A DNA stretch of 64,000 nucleotides, taken from contig NZ_CP058648.1 of assembly GCF_018141405.1 (NCBI RefSeq), positions 1,689,001 to 1,753,000 on the forward strand. The letters run 5' to 3'. The translations under genes and the position numbers were made by a program. Positions within the stretch are counted from its first letter, which is position 1, and each line of letters begins with the position of its first letter. Under the pieces are notes generated by a model, which saw nothing but the letters and a program-made list of their open reading frames with translations, did not search any database and had not been told where the DNA came from. The DNA is from Serpentinicella alkaliphila (lineage in GTDB: Bacteria; Bacillota; Clostridia; Peptostreptococcales; Natronincolaceae). Of this stretch, positions 3,615 through 21,655 are shown piece by piece.

Positions 3615-5222
3615 ATGACGTTAGATAGATTTATAGATGAGGTTAAAAGAAGGAGAACATTCGCTATTATATCCCATCCAGATGCTGGTAAAACTACATT
3701 AACTGAAAAATTACTTCTTTATGGAGGTGCTATTAGATTAGCAGGTTCAGTTAAGTCTAGAAAAACACAAAAACATGCGGTATCTGATTGGATGGAAATA
3801 GAGAAACAAAGAGGTATTTCGGTTACATCGAGTGTTCTACAATTTAATTATAATAATTACTGTATAAATATATTAGATACTCCTGGCCATCAGGATTTCA
3901 GTGAAGATACCTATAGGACTTTAGTCGCTGCAGATAGTGCCGTAATGGTTATTGACTGTGCTAAAGGGGTAGAGGCCCAAACTAAAAAGTTATTCCATGT
4001 ATGTAAAATGAGAAATATACCTATATTTACTTTTGTTAATAAGCTAGATAGAGCTGGTAAGGACCCTTTTGAGTTAATGGAAGAGATTGAACAAGTGCTT
4101 GGAATCCGTTCTTATCCAATGAATTGGCCTATAGGAACTGATGGTAATTTTAAAGGGGTATATAATAGAATAGATAACCAAATCGAGCTATTTGAAGGTG
4201 GAAACCATGGGCAGTCAGTTGTTTCTTCTGTTTCAGGTGAGGTTTCAGATCCGGTTTTTAAAGATTTACTAGGTGAGCATCTGCATAAACAGCTAATGGA
4301 TGAGATTGAGCTATTAGATATAGCAGGAGATGACTTCGATTTAAATAAAATTTTAAAAGGTGAGCTTACCCCTGTATTCTTTGGAAGTGCCATGACGAAT
4401 TTTGGGGTACAACCTTTTCTGGAATCTTTCTTAGAAATAACAACACCGCCTTTAGCTAGACAAAGTAATCTAGGGTTAATCGATCCGGAAACCCAAAACT
4501 TTACTGGTTTTGTATTTAAGATACAAGCAAATATGAATCCTGCCCATAGGGATAGAATAGCCTTTATTAGAATATGTTCTGGAAAATTTGAAAAAGGTAT
4601 GGCAGTTAATCACGTTCGTGCAAAAAAAGTTATAAAGCTATCACAACCACAACAATTTTTAGCTCAGGATAGAGCAGTAGTAGAGGAAGCATACCCTGGT
4701 GATATAATTGGTGTACATGACCCTGGTATATTTAATATAGGAGATACTTTATGTCAGGATGCATCTAAAATAAAGTACGAAGGTATTCCTGTTTTTGCAC
4801 CAGAACATTTCGCAAAAGTATTTGCTAAAGACTCAATGAAAAGAAAGCAATTTTTAAAAGGTGTAGACCAGTTATCTGAAGAGGGAGCTATACAAGTATT
4901 TAAAAGACCTCATGTAGGAGTTGAAGAATTAATTATCGGTGTAGTTGGGGTCCTTCAATTTGAAGTATTAGAATACCGTTTAAAAAATGAGTATGGTGTA
5001 GATATTCAAATGCAGCAGCTTCCTTACAAATATATTAGATGGGTTGAAACAGAGAAGTTTGATCCGGATACATTTAGTATAACTATGGATACATTAATAG
5101 TTGAGGATCAGGATGATAAACCTGTTTTATTATTCCAAAACGAATGGTCTATACAAAAAGTAGAAGAGAGAAACAAAAACGCCGTATTAAAAGATATATC
5201 CTCAAGAAATGATGATAATTAG
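3615..5222 (+). CDS. prfC: Peptide chain release factor 3 (RF3)
   Basis: A translational GTPase that recycles RF1 and RF2 from the ribosome after peptide release. At 535 residues it is the usual RF3 length. The G1 loop HPDAGKTTLTE lies near residue 22, G2 is QRGISVTSS, G3 is DTPGHQDF near residue 88, and G4 is NKLD. The switch-region sequence VMVIDCAKGVEAQTKKLF and the C-terminal GVVGVLQFEVLEYRLKNEYG stretch are characteristic of RF3 rather than EF-G. AGAGG precedes the ATG. A strong terminator follows, and the convergent HD-domain gene lies just downstream. Nothing unusual is seen. Confidence 0.97.
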   Translation: MTLDRFIDEVKRRRTFAIISHPDAGKTTLTEKLLLYGGAIRLAGSVKSRKTQKHAVSDWMEIEKQRGISVTSSVLQFNYNNYCINILDTPGHQDFSEDTYRTLVAADSAVMVIDCAKGVEAQTKKLFHVCKMRNIPIFTFVNKLDRAGKDPFELMEEIEQVLGIRSYPMNWPIGTDGNFKGVYNRIDNQIELFEGGNHGQSVVSSVSGEVSDPVFKDLLGEHLHKQLMDEIELLDIAGDDFDLNKILKGELTPVFFGSAMTNFGVQPFLESFLEITTPPLARQSNLGLIDPETQNFTGFVFKIQANMNPAHRDRIAFIRICSGKFEKGMAVNHVRAKKVIKLSQPQQFLAQDRAVVEEAYPGDIIGVHDPGIFNIGDTLCQDASKIKYEGIPVFAPEHFAKVFAKDSMKRKQFLKGVDQLSEEGAIQVFKRPHVGVEELIIGVVGVLQFEVLEYRLKNEYGVDIQMQQLPYKYIRWVETEKFDPDTFSITMDTLIVEDQDDKPVLLFQNEWSIQKVEERNKNAVLKDISSRNDDN

Positions 5223-5227
5223 AACAG

Positions 5228-5258
5228 AACCCTCAGTTAATACGACTGAGGGTTTTTA
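5228..5258 (+). terminator. Terminator of prfC
   Basis: A 10-bp perfect stem (AACCCTCAGT with ACTGAGGGTT) encloses a 7-base loop and is followed by five Ts. It sits 6 bases after the prfC stop, between convergent genes. Confidence 0.9.
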
Positions 5259-5268
5259 ACATACTTAA

Positions 5269-5751
5269 TTAGTTTAAATCGTCATATTTAATTAATACTT
5301 GCATTTCAGGTATCATATAATCATCTGGGTAGTGATGGTGTTTAATTAACATAAGCATCTTTTCATCGGAAACTAAATTTTTTAAAAGCTCATATCCTAA
5401 ATGTCCATGGTTTAACTTATAGTTAAGAGCTTGTCTTAAAAATATAGGTAGATATGAGTCTTTAATCTTAAGTGCAATTGATATAACAACTAAGGATTTG
5501 TTTATTATTGAAAGATTGCTACTAATTTTACCTATGTCATGAAGGAGTGCAGCTTTAATTAATGTAGAATTAGCTGACATTTCCTTATTGCAGCCATATG
5601 CAACATTAAGACTATGGCGTTGTTCACTTAATCGAAGCTTGTAAAACAGTTCCTGTTCTTTATTATTTAAGTATTTTTCTATAAAAATTTTATCTTCATT
5701 ATATATTTTGGCATTAATACCATTTATAAACTGTCGTATTCTATAAATCAT
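5269..5751 (-). CDS. Small HD-domain (HDIG) phosphohydrolase-like protein
   Basis: A 160-residue cytoplasmic protein with a single HD domain. The N-terminal half carries the first metal-ligand His (SEQRHSLNVAYG). The central LLHDIGKI gives the His-Asp pair, and HGHLGYELLKNL and IKHHHYPDD supply further His ligands. HD domains bind divalent metals and usually hydrolyse phosphomonoester or phosphodiester bonds in nucleotides; the substrate here is unknown. I chose the ATG at 5751 rather than the in-frame GTG at 5760, because that GTG lies inside the AAGGGTG ribosome site, which sits 6 bases before the ATG. The gene is convergent with prfC. Confidence 0.75.
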   Translation of the reverse strand: MIYRIRQFINGINAKIYNEDKIFIEKYLNNKEQELFYKLRLSEQRHSLNVAYGCNKEMSANSTLIKAALLHDIGKISSNLSIINKSLVVISIALKIKDSYLPIFLRQALNYKLNHGHLGYELLKNLVSDEKMLMLIKHHHYPDDYMIPEMQVLIKYDDLN

Positions 5752-5892
5752 GTAAATCACCCTTAATTATTATAGTACATATTCTAAGTAATTAAAAATG
5801 CAATAGAGACAAAAGTGGTATAAGGAAATATATTTAATAATATATATAAAGTAAACATATAATTATTTTTTATAGATAAAGGGGGAGTTGTT

Positions 5893-6072
5893 TTGTTTAC
5901 ATGGATTGCATTAATTCTAATGATTGTTGGTGCAATTAACTGGGGACTAATGGGATTGTTCAAATTCAATATTATAGAAAAAATTTTTGGTAGAGGTAAA
6001 ATAACTAGAGTAATATATACATTAGTTGGTATATCAGCTATATATACACTGCTACTATTAATAATTAAGTGA
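5893..6072 (+). CDS. DUF378 (YuzA-type) small membrane protein
   Basis: A 59-residue protein of two hydrophobic helices. The opening FTWIALILMIVGAINWGLMG is the DUF378 signature (GAINWGL), and a second span ends in the basic tail LLLIIK. The start is a TTG at 5893, placed 7 bases after a GGGGGAG ribosome site; no ATG fits in frame. A perfect terminator follows within 6 bases of the stop. The function of the family is unknown. It is often a single gene in spore-forming Firmicutes, as here. Confidence 0.8.
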   Translation: MFTWIALILMIVGAINWGLMGLFKFNIIEKIFGRGKITRVIYTLVGISAIYTLLLLIIK

Positions 6073-16962: not shown

Positions 16963-17179
16963 GCGTATGAACAGGTCGACCTCATTAATTGAGAGAGGGT
17001 TTAGTTGACACGACAGATCAGATAACGGGCATTTTTACATAGGTTGATGAGAAGTGTTAGATGTGTTTGTACACGTATCGCAACGATTACAGCTATTATA
17101 ACCATAAAAAAATATTAATAGATCTCATATTCCGCTGAATAGATTATAAAATCCCATCTTTGACAGTTAATAAAGAAAA

Positions 17180-17219
17180 AAAGCTTGTAACCTGTTATAA
17201 ATAGAAGGTTACAAGCTTT
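17180..17219 (-). terminator. Terminator at the 3' end of decayed element IS-B
   Basis: A 13-bp perfect stem (AAAGCTTGTAACC with GGTTACAAGCTTT) is followed on the minus strand by TTTTTTTCTTT. It lies 31 bases past the original stop of the IS-B transposase (17250), so it is probably that element's own terminator. Confidence 0.7.
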
Positions 17220-17249
17220 ATATATTTGTCCAAAAAGTGCGTAATTTTT

Positions 17250-17343
17250 TTATCTTTTCGTATCTTTAAAAATATTTTTCATATGTGTGTTTTTTATTAT
17301 TTGATGATCCGTTCTGAAGCCAAAAGCCTCATGAAGTGCATCT
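17250..17343 (-). pseudogene. C-terminal piece of the IS-B transposase, left of IS-A
   Basis: On the minus strand this reads DALHEAFGFRTDHQII, then KNTHMKNIFKDTKR and a stop, a lysine-rich ending normal for clostridial transposases of this group. The first 52 bases (17292-17343) are identical to 19446-19497, where the same protein is cut and instead runs into IS-A sequence (PDFRT, stop). This piece is therefore the true end of the IS-B transposase. Confidence 0.8.
17292..17343. repeat. 52-bp target-site duplication, left copy
   Basis: A perfect 52-base direct repeat of 19446-19497, directly abutting the left terminal inverted repeat of IS-A. Unusually long, variable target duplications are a documented trait of IS1634 and IS1549 elements. 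Confidence 0.9.
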
Positions 17344-17432
17344 CCTGACTTTGGAACATCATTCATAAGAAAAAGTGCTGTAATCGTCTGTCTATAGAAG
17401 TTTCAGCACTTTTTATTGTTGTTTTACGTTCA

Positions 17433-19293
17433 CTACATCTTTTTAATTATATTGGGGATTTCATTACTTAGCAGAACATTCTTTTCAATCTTAAATATGT
17501 CTTTGTTTATTTTACTATTAAGTAATTTGTCTGACATTATATATAATTTGTCTACTTTGTAATCAATTTCATCTATTATAAATCCTTCTAGTCCATTGAT
17601 TATTTCATAGGTAGATAATTCAACTTTATTCACTGCTAACTTATACTCTAATATTCTTTGCATTACTAAGGCTAAATAACAAATTAAAAAATGCGACCTA
17701 ATTCTTCGTTCTTTAAAGTGATATACTGGTCTTGTTTTTAAATTTGTTTTTAATATTCTAAAGGATTCTTCAATTTTATATAGAGATTTATAAGCTACCA
17801 TTATATCTCTTTGGGTTCATATCCACTTTATTTGTAACAATGTAAAAATATCCGAAATTTTCTTGCTCTTGTTTAATTATTTCCTCATCAATTTCAATGT
17901 TTATTTTTTCTTTAGGGTTTTCTACTGCTTTATAATACTTGCTTTTGGATTTAGTTGTTGAGTTGATTGTAAAATCCTTTATATTCTTTTTAGCTCTTTC
18001 AATCATTTTCTCTTGTTTAAACATCTCACGTTCTTTGTAGACATCTGAATATTTTTTTATGATTAATTCGTCATAGGTTTCATCATTCTGACTCACCTTT
18101 CTTTTACTGGTTATATATCCGCTTTTGTATTTAGCTTCTGCATTAGAAGTTATGTTCCAAGATGAATTAAATTTCTTCTCTTTTAAATCTTTAGGAACTG
18201 CACTGCCCTTAGAACCTACAATGTAACTAAGCCCTTTACCTCGAATCATCTCTAAGTTAGCCCTTGAATTTAAGCCCCTATCGGCCACTATTATGATTTC
18301 TTTTATGGTGTAATTATTTAATATATCGTCAATGACTTCTTCCATGGTATGTAATTCATGTTTGTTGCCTTTAAAAAGCCTATAAGAAATAGGTATCCCA
18401 TTGGTGTCTATTAGTAAGCCCATAACAACTTGTGTTTCATTTCTTTTATTATCCTTACTCATACCTCTTTCTCTAAATCCGTCTTCATCAAAAGACTCAA
18501 AGTAATAGGTTGTACAGTCATAAAATGCTAATGACATATTTCTATCTGGAATAATCTTTCCTATATGATCATTTAAATGTTTGAAAAGTTTATTTTCATT
18601 CATTTCAAAATTTTTATCATAGGTAGCTATATTTTGTTCCAATTCATCAGAAGTGTTTTTAATGTTATATTCTAATATTTTTTTAGCCTCTGAATCAACG
18701 GTATCTAAGAGGATTTCCATGTTTTTTATGAGCTGAACTCCATCTGTTAGTGCTTTAGATTTATGTTTATTAAATCCAGAAAAAACATCTAGGGAAGAAT
18801 AAATGTTATCGCTATTCACAAAACTGAAATCATATAGGAAATCATCTTTTCTAGAAGCCACTTCAAGCTTGCTTGAAGGATTAAATAATCTACCAAGTAC
18901 CTGATAGAACATTAAGTTACTAAAGGAATAATCTAGTTTAGAATCTTTCACCATTTTAGTAAAAAAGTTAGGTAATTTCAATTGGTTAAAGATTTTTAGG
19001 TATGGAAGATAACCTAAGTTTTTATGATTAAGAGAAAGCTTATCTTTTGACAATGATTCAATGAAATCTTCAAAGTTTTCAAATCCTTGAGAAGCTTCAT
19101 CCAGTCTAATCATTTCTTTTAGATCTGCTTCAGCTTGAGCAAGAGCTTCCTTACCTGATTTAGAATCTAAATCATGAGTACCAAAACCTTTAATCTGAAT
19201 TTTTTTTGATTTCTTAGTTTTGGGATCTCTAATCCCCTTAGCGATTGATATAAAATATTTACCATTTGGTCTTTTAGATTTACTAATATACAT
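17433..19293 (-). pseudogene. IS1634-family transposase with a single-base frameshift
   Basis: A DDE transposase of the IS4/IS1634 superfamily. The first frame runs from the ATG at 19293 (after GGAGGTG) to a stop at 17788. It contains the first catalytic Asp in FYDCTTYYFES and the second in IIVADRGLNSRA. The third catalytic residue lies in the shifted frame: YKSLYKIEESFRILKT carries the IS4-type Y-(2)R/K-(3)E-(6)K motif. Removing one base near 17808 turns ...MNPKRYNGSL-stop into ...NPKDIMVAYKSLYKIEESF, so a one-base insertion explains the break. IS1634 elements are not known to use programmed frameshifting, so the copy is probably dead. Confidence 0.85.
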
Positions 19294-19376
19294 GCTACAC
19301 CTCCACAAAAACCCTCTAACTATATTATACATCATATTCTACACCACGACAAGTCGTGAGCGTTAATAAATAAAAA

Positions 19377-19417
19377 AATAATGAGAAATGTTAAAAATTA
19401 GACATTTACTCATTATT
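19377..19417 (-). terminator. Inward-facing terminator inside the right end of IS-A
   Basis: A 15-bp stem with one bulged base (AATAATGAG-AAATGT with ACATTT-A-CTCATTATT) is followed on the minus strand by a long T-run. It lies between the IS end and the transposase start, so it would stop transcription entering from the flank. Confidence 0.75.
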
Positions 19418-19445
19418 TGTTATTAATTTATGTTCTGAAGTCAGG

Positions 19446-19497
19446 TTTTATTATTTGATGATCCGTTCTGAAGCCAAAAGCCTCATGAAGTGCATCT
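19446..19497. repeat. 52-bp target-site duplication, right copy
   Basis: The exact repeat of 17292-17343, abutting the right end of IS-A. It lies inside the IS-B transposase gene. Confidence 0.9.
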
Positions 19498-21066: not shown

Positions 21067-21254
21067 TTATATTATCCGTATAAAAAATTATACATTCTTG
21101 TATATTCAGAGGTTTTGTATTTCTTCTAGGATAATCATTTCTCTCGGAGGATGATTCAGATTATCTTAGATCTAAGATAATCTGAAGGAAGCTGGAGGCA
21201 AAGCACAGAACTGAGGTACACACGAATCACATTCGAGGCTCAATCAAATGGATG

Positions 21255-21655
21255 AGGTTGCAAACATTACAAAATCGATATTTAAAACCATAATACAGAG
21301 AGAGCTTTAGCAAATCATCCGAAGGGTACTTCTCGCTTTTACTAACAAACTTTTTGACGGCTACCTTCATATTGTCATATACTACGGTTTGATAGACTCC
21401 ACCAATTCGATTTAAGAATTTAACATGAGCATCTAAGATAGAGCATCTCTAATGTAGTTACAGACAGTAGGATAGCTTATTACCATAACCTTCTTCTATT
21501 AGGCATTCATAAATATCAATTTTCTTCTTTTGCTGGTTACTTCTACCTGTTGCCTTTTTGATCTCATTTTCATTAAGGAAGAACTGAATTCTTTCAATTA
21601 TTGAATCAGAAAAGCTTTCTTCTAATACTATTACTACTATCGTATTAGGTTGTTC
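21255..21655 (-). pseudogene. istA: IS21-family IstA transposase remnant
   Basis: On the minus strand one frame reads FSDSIIERIQFFLNENEIKK and QKKKIDIYECLIEEGYG. Another continues SYPTVCNYIRDAL, and after an internal deletion a third reads FLNRIGGVYQTVVYDNMKVA, KSEKYPSDDLLKLSLYYGFK and YRFCNV. These are consecutive blocks of clostridial IS21 IstA proteins. The stretch between NYIRDAL and DAHVKF, about 70 residues in intact proteins and including a catalytic Asp, is gone. No istB is present. The remnant ends at the stop of the MFS gene. Bases 21067-21254 hold only a palindromic stretch near 21172 (TTATCTTAGATCTAAGATAA) and no gene. Confidence 0.7.

Follow-up and report, generated by a model that had tools for sequence, protein, structure and literature searches.

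The window (64,000 nucleotides of DNA, positions 1,689,001-1,753,000 of a closed 3.26-Mb genome) contains an insertion element of the IS1634 family with an exact 52-bp target duplication at its ends, and long duplications were the rule across several clades of this family. The two target junctions of such insertions are not equivalent: in the clade of the window element, one had a specific sequence and the other was nearly non-specific. It is likely that the two ends of this DDE element, whose transposase has the Tn5 fold, were inserted in succession at two distinct places, and not 5-6 bp apart in one concerted step. The duplications would be long because the two ends enter the target at separate places. 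Long variable duplications in the IS1634 family have stood as an unexplained exception to the fixed-stagger rule, and the different sequence rules at the two ends make an ordered, uncoupled two-site attack directly testable.

The window element and its target duplication

The element covers positions 17344-19445 (2102 bp), with the transposase on the minus strand. Its limits were supported by seven copies in the genome, 97-100% identical, which had common ends. The terminal inverted repeat downstream of the transposase (IRR, CCTGACTTTGGAACAT, 17344-17359, plus strand) and that upstream of it (IRL, CCTGACTTCAGAACAT on the minus strand, 19430-19445) were also common to the seven copies. The two repeats agreed at 14 of 16 bases, as the initial annotation had stated. 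The 52-bp repeats immediately outside the ends, at 17292-17343 on the left and 19446-19497 on the right, were confirmed as exact and are spaced 2154 bp; the probability that an exact 52-mer arose here by chance is negligible.

The transposase gene of the window copy is disrupted by a frameshift, an indel relative to the intact copy L006, which carries the only intact transposase of this element in the genome. The N-terminal part of 515 aa (17788-19335, minus strand) contains the first two catalytic D residues of the DDE triad. The C-terminal part of 122 aa (17433-17801, minus strand) is out of frame. The IS1634-family model NF033559 matched the 515-aa part with 222 bits against a cut-off of 100, in agreement with the IS1634-type assignment made initially.

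The element was inserted in another IS1634-type element, also on the minus strand, which extends from 17153 to about 21025 in two pieces (17153-17343 and 19498 to about 21025). In the window copy this host element is frameshifted and truncated at the far end. It belongs to clade A, one of the promoter-aimed clades described below, and four other copies of it in the same genome had exact duplications of 122, 348, 207 and 117 bp. Five uninterrupted copies (L203-L207, same genome) each contained the 52-mer once, with one substitution and with flanks identical in context. When the window element and one repeat were removed, the site matched these five copies gaplessly at about 99.5%, and the rejoined reading frame of the host transposase ended in ...HQIIKNTHMKNIFKDTKR, the same end as in the intact copy L333. 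The initial annotation had taken the rejoined frame as proof of a duplication and had proposed comparison with empty sites. Both lines of evidence agreed: the 52-mer is single in five empty sites, none of which held two tandem 52-bp units, and it is therefore a true target duplication made at insertion. Beside the truncated host element, an 83-base stretch (about 21179-21261) also occurred at four other places of the genome with 92% identity; it is possibly a small interspersed repeat.

Duplications in other copies and near relatives

The seven copies in the genome had duplications of 52, 6, 252, 167, 90 (one mismatch), 858 (three mismatches) and 90 bp. A 6-bp repeat was found at only one copy (L002). 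Uniform short duplications at the other copies, which the initial annotation had named as evidence against its reading, were thus absent (6, 90, 90, 167, 252 and 858 bp).

Twelve copies of an 89%-identical element were found in G003, a genome of a different genus in the same family. All were intact and differed from each other by at most 2 bases. Eleven had duplications of 117, 88, 216, 94, 106, 318, 113, 98, 96, 197 and 222 bp, and the twelfth (L060) kept 52 bp of a likely 260-bp repeat. A relative of 73% identity in G337 had duplications of 336, 88, 189 and 90 bp. In another G337 locus (L149, G337:C1:493825-506812), an element lay 99 bp inside a sister copy, and its 145-bp duplication ran across the sister's end, giving a near-tandem pair. 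The genome_contigs search gave three relatives, one of which, of 76% identity in Clostridiaceae bacterium HSG29, was flanked by an exact repeat of 1825 bp. No relatives of the element were found in the viral_contigs search. The lengths from copy to copy in the element's own genome, G003 and G337 support the initial suggestion that the element makes long, variable duplications like those of IS1634 and IS1549.

Long and short classes in the IS1634 family

The survey was extended to about 160 additional loci in 23 genomes from the order, class and phylum. Element ends were defined by comparison between copies together with the terminal repeats, and all insertions in the survey are survivors. The long class comprised 118 insertions of 38 IS1634-family elements, with duplications of 30-1825 bp (median 128 bp, quartiles 87 and 215 bp), and the repeats were exact in 109 of the 118. 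A short class of five elements (G198B, G662C, G501B, G1005c and G996d) had duplications of 6 bp, once 7 bp. In the tree, the short-class proteins were placed outside the supported long-class groups, on long branches whose placement is unsure.

Beyond the 118 insertions, about 20 long-class copies had imperfect, nested or swapped repeats, about 12 had no trace of a duplication, and two had short repeats (6 and about 15 bp). The repeat of about 15 bp belonged to L282 (G1013:C1:1672907-1682727, element at 3897-6004); in this class, only the 6-bp repeat at copy L002 of the window element was shorter. Two loci of G501, L184 and L185, had no repeats of their own; a 147-bp repeat was common to both, as expected from recombination between copies or from misassembly. 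In G061, a 4.2-kb repeat held a shorter IS1634-like element at three places (L158, L161 and L162). For the 1018-bp case at L158, no homologous empty site was found among relatives. Single plasmid records, in which the ends were defined from one copy each, gave duplications of about 610 bp (Mycobacterium riyadhense), 43 bp (Mycoplasmopsis), 33 bp (Persicobacter), 32 bp (Rhodococcus) and 13 bp (Ligilactobacillus). Annotation tools for insertion elements that seek short repeats only would miss or mislabel such insertions.

Unequal junctions in the clade of the window element

The window element and its copies in the same genome were grouped into one clade with the elements of G003, G337A and HSG29. 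A match of at least 4/5 to TTATA was present at one junction in 20 of 22 insertions and at both in 1 of 22, against a background of 5%. Exactly one strong TTATA junction was found in 19 of the 22 insertions (permutation p = 0.001 against random pairing of ends). The specific site (a|TTATA) was taken by either end. At the secondary junction, the preference was limited to A at +1 (84%) and a purine at -1. In the window copy, the primary junction is at 19445|19446, where the target reads TTTTAT outward from IRL (19446-19451, plus strand). The secondary junction is at 17343|17344, where AGAT is read outward from IRR (17340-17343, minus strand), with A at +1 as in most secondary junctions of the clade.

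In this clade, a -35 box was found in 4 of 25 cases (expected 3.2), and the downstream genes showed no direction bias (11:14). Since neither signal was present, the promoter result described below is not transferable to the window element, which has neither TTGACA-17-TATAAT nor a codirectional gene as a recurrent feature of its clade's sites. On either side of the site, the flanking genes mostly pointed toward it (6:16 and 5:17), and this convergence indicates that the clade sits in intergenic DNA at gene ends. When terminators were considered as the target, terminator-like hairpins were found at 13 of 22 insertions of this clade compared with 20 of 83 elsewhere, at no fixed distance.

Promoters at the specific junction of clades A, B and C

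Most other long-class elements had their specific junction always at IRR, with ATTATA or TTATA read outward; the register was constant within each element. Read backward, this sequence is the -10 box of a sigma-A promoter. Because the two registers were blurred in a pooled motif profile, they were set element by element. With the register and the fixed end of each element assigned in this way from the data, the mean match to TATAAT in clade A was 4.74 at IRR versus 1.87 at IRL. At the IRL junction of the fixed-end elements nothing like TATAAT was found, merely a G at -1. Three elements with long duplications (G945, G996c and G1031) had no clear primary motif.

We predicted beforehand that a -35 box would lie upstream of the site and a codirectional gene downstream, and both were found. 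TTGACA (at least 4/6) was enriched at a spacer of 17 only (26 of 83 insertions); other spacers gave 1 to 9, about 4. The gene downstream of the site, defined as the longest open frame within 900 bases, was codirectional in 73 cases and opposite in 10 (clade A 35:3, clade B 8:0, clade C 29:5). Where TATAAT was perfect, a -35 box accompanied it in 16 of 27 insertions (59%) versus 7.7% of 745 occurrences in the same flanking DNA (p = 8e-12). Among eight held-out insertions, scored in the best of three registers, TATAAT matched 6/6 in seven, a -35 box was present in four (two of them perfect TTGACA-17-TATAAT) and the downstream genes were 6:2 codirectional. The results show that the primary site in clades A, B and C is a real promoter, with a -35 box at a 17-bp spacer and a downstream gene. 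The second junction lay 30-1800 bp upstream of the specific site and had little specificity.

A replication-fork bias in the strand attacked first was also considered. The first attack was against the fork in 28 cases and with it in 14 (p = 0.04, the terminus being assumed opposite dnaA), but promoter direction would produce such a bias, and the fork was therefore dropped as a mechanism.

Proposed mechanism and alternatives

In the ordered two-site attack that we favour, the 3'-OH of the first end would attack one strand at the specific site, and the second end would attack the opposite strand 30 to 1800 bp away; prior unwinding of the target would not be required. Once the IRR 3' end is joined to the 5' side of the nick, a target 3'-OH would remain. 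Both target 3'-OH ends could then be extended by strand-displacement synthesis of the host, copying the segment between the nicks, and ligation would yield an element flanked by long direct repeats. The distance between the two attacks would equal d, the length of the duplication. An exact d-base duplication would arise if the second end joins on the side where both ends remain connected to the segment between the nicks, and the opposite polarity would yield deletions. The second junction was always on the side that gives a duplication, and deletions were rare or absent among these insertions. We infer attack order, polarity, host synthesis and the part played by RNA polymerase from static junctions, in which no intermediate is seen.

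In the promoter-aimed clades, the template strand would receive the first joint at the -7/-6 (or -8/-7) step, a position that is melted in the open complex. The duplication would extend upstream beyond the -35 box, so that the target gene would keep a complete promoter. It may be, with the chances about even, that much of the IS1634 family takes RNA polymerase-bound promoters as targets, IRR joining the melted -10 template strand and IRL the other strand upstream of the polymerase, with the target gene's promoter left intact. If so, these elements would be bacterial transposons that target the transcription machinery and insert harmlessly. The smallest duplications (30-34 bp) just exceed the 29 bp of the -35/-10 pair. 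RNA polymerase as the sole cause of this minimum was weakened by the clades that lack promoter aiming, where the minima were 33-52 bp. These similar values suggest that the 30-bp minimum may be set by the transposition complex and not by RNA polymerase.

A concerted attack, in which the transposase holds two target segments joined by a bend or loop and both ends act simultaneously, makes largely the same predictions as the ordered model. If the loop has a smallest possible size, a lower bound near 30 bp would be expected in non-promoter clades too, as found, and DNA upstream of a promoter bends around RNA polymerase. However, duplication lengths showed no helical phasing (R 0.08 at 10.5 bp, p 0.53), and the sequence rules differ between the two junctions; we consider this explanation unlikely. 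It is also rather improbable that each end attacks a different sister chromosome, at positions that do not correspond, so that after resolution one product carries a long duplication and the other lacks a segment of similar size. Variable lengths and uncoupled ends would be accounted for in this way, but deletions should then be about as frequent as duplications, whereas the 118 clear and about 20 imperfect duplications compare with about 12 traceless copies. At least one traceless pair among these (L184 and L185) is explained by recombination between copies, and the minimum near 30 bp would be left unexplained.

That the promoter association reflects selection and not targeting is very unlikely. 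All copies are survivors, so promoter-sparing insertions would be retained, and a long duplication leaves an intact promoter upstream of the target gene. Selection cannot, however, account for a junction at one fixed base of the -10 box that recurs across the elements, and TATAAT away from insertions was rarely accompanied by a -35 box. Ordinary 5-6 bp insertion into a pre-existing tandem repeat, or later recombinational growth of the duplication, might be suggested by the 6-bp copy L002 and by relatives that always have 6 bp, but it is refuted for the window copy by the five empty sites and is hardly credible elsewhere, given that nearly all long repeats are exact with edges that coincide with a specific motif at one junction, a pattern with promoter-aligned edges that recombination between 6-bp repeats would not yield. 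Ordered attack at two separate sites thus remains the reading that we prefer.

Comparison with known systems

A search of solved structures by sequence gave no match for the transposase. The AlphaFold model of the G003 transposase (mean pLDDT 86) had Tn5 transposase (IS50, IS4 family) as its nearest solved fold (Z 20.3 over 346 residues). The likeness lies in the fold and the DDE chemistry, with sequence identity of about 10%. Residues D259, D338 and E508 were invariant in 40 transposases of both the long and the short class. Tn5 makes a fixed 9-bp target duplication, unlike the long variable ones of the window element.

Several features of the window element can be compared with the description of the IS1634 family by De Palmenaer et al. 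2008 (PMC2266710). Both ends read CCTGACTT, in agreement with the terminal consensus C-----YT of the family. The length of 2102 bp is slightly over the typical 1500-2000 bp. The family has a YREK motif without R, and the clade of the window element has a partial one, with Y501, L504 in the R position, E508 and K515. The same work gave 5-6 bp as the duplication length of the family and 8-514 bp for IS1634 and IS1549, and stated that no mechanistic model had been put forward. The window element departs from 5-6 bp in all copies but one; since the type element IS1634 does so as well, duplication length is unsound as a criterion of membership. New insertions with 6-bp repeats were reported for ISGka5 of Geobacillus (PMC8024623) and ISPfe2 of Paracoccus (PMC3281130), which carry the same family name and resemble the five short-class elements found here.

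We found no junction asymmetry and no promoter-aimed or two-step model for the IS1634 family in the open-access literature; nor did we find there a description of the target-selection mechanism in bacteria to which promoter-aimed attack points. IS1634 of Mycoplasma mycoides and IS1549 of Mycobacterium smegmatis share with the window element the transposase family, the C...G termini and long duplications that differ between copies of one element. Long duplications were therefore already known from these two elements, with the range extended here to 1825 bp and across 38 elements, and it is the ordered, promoter-aimed attack that appears to be new.
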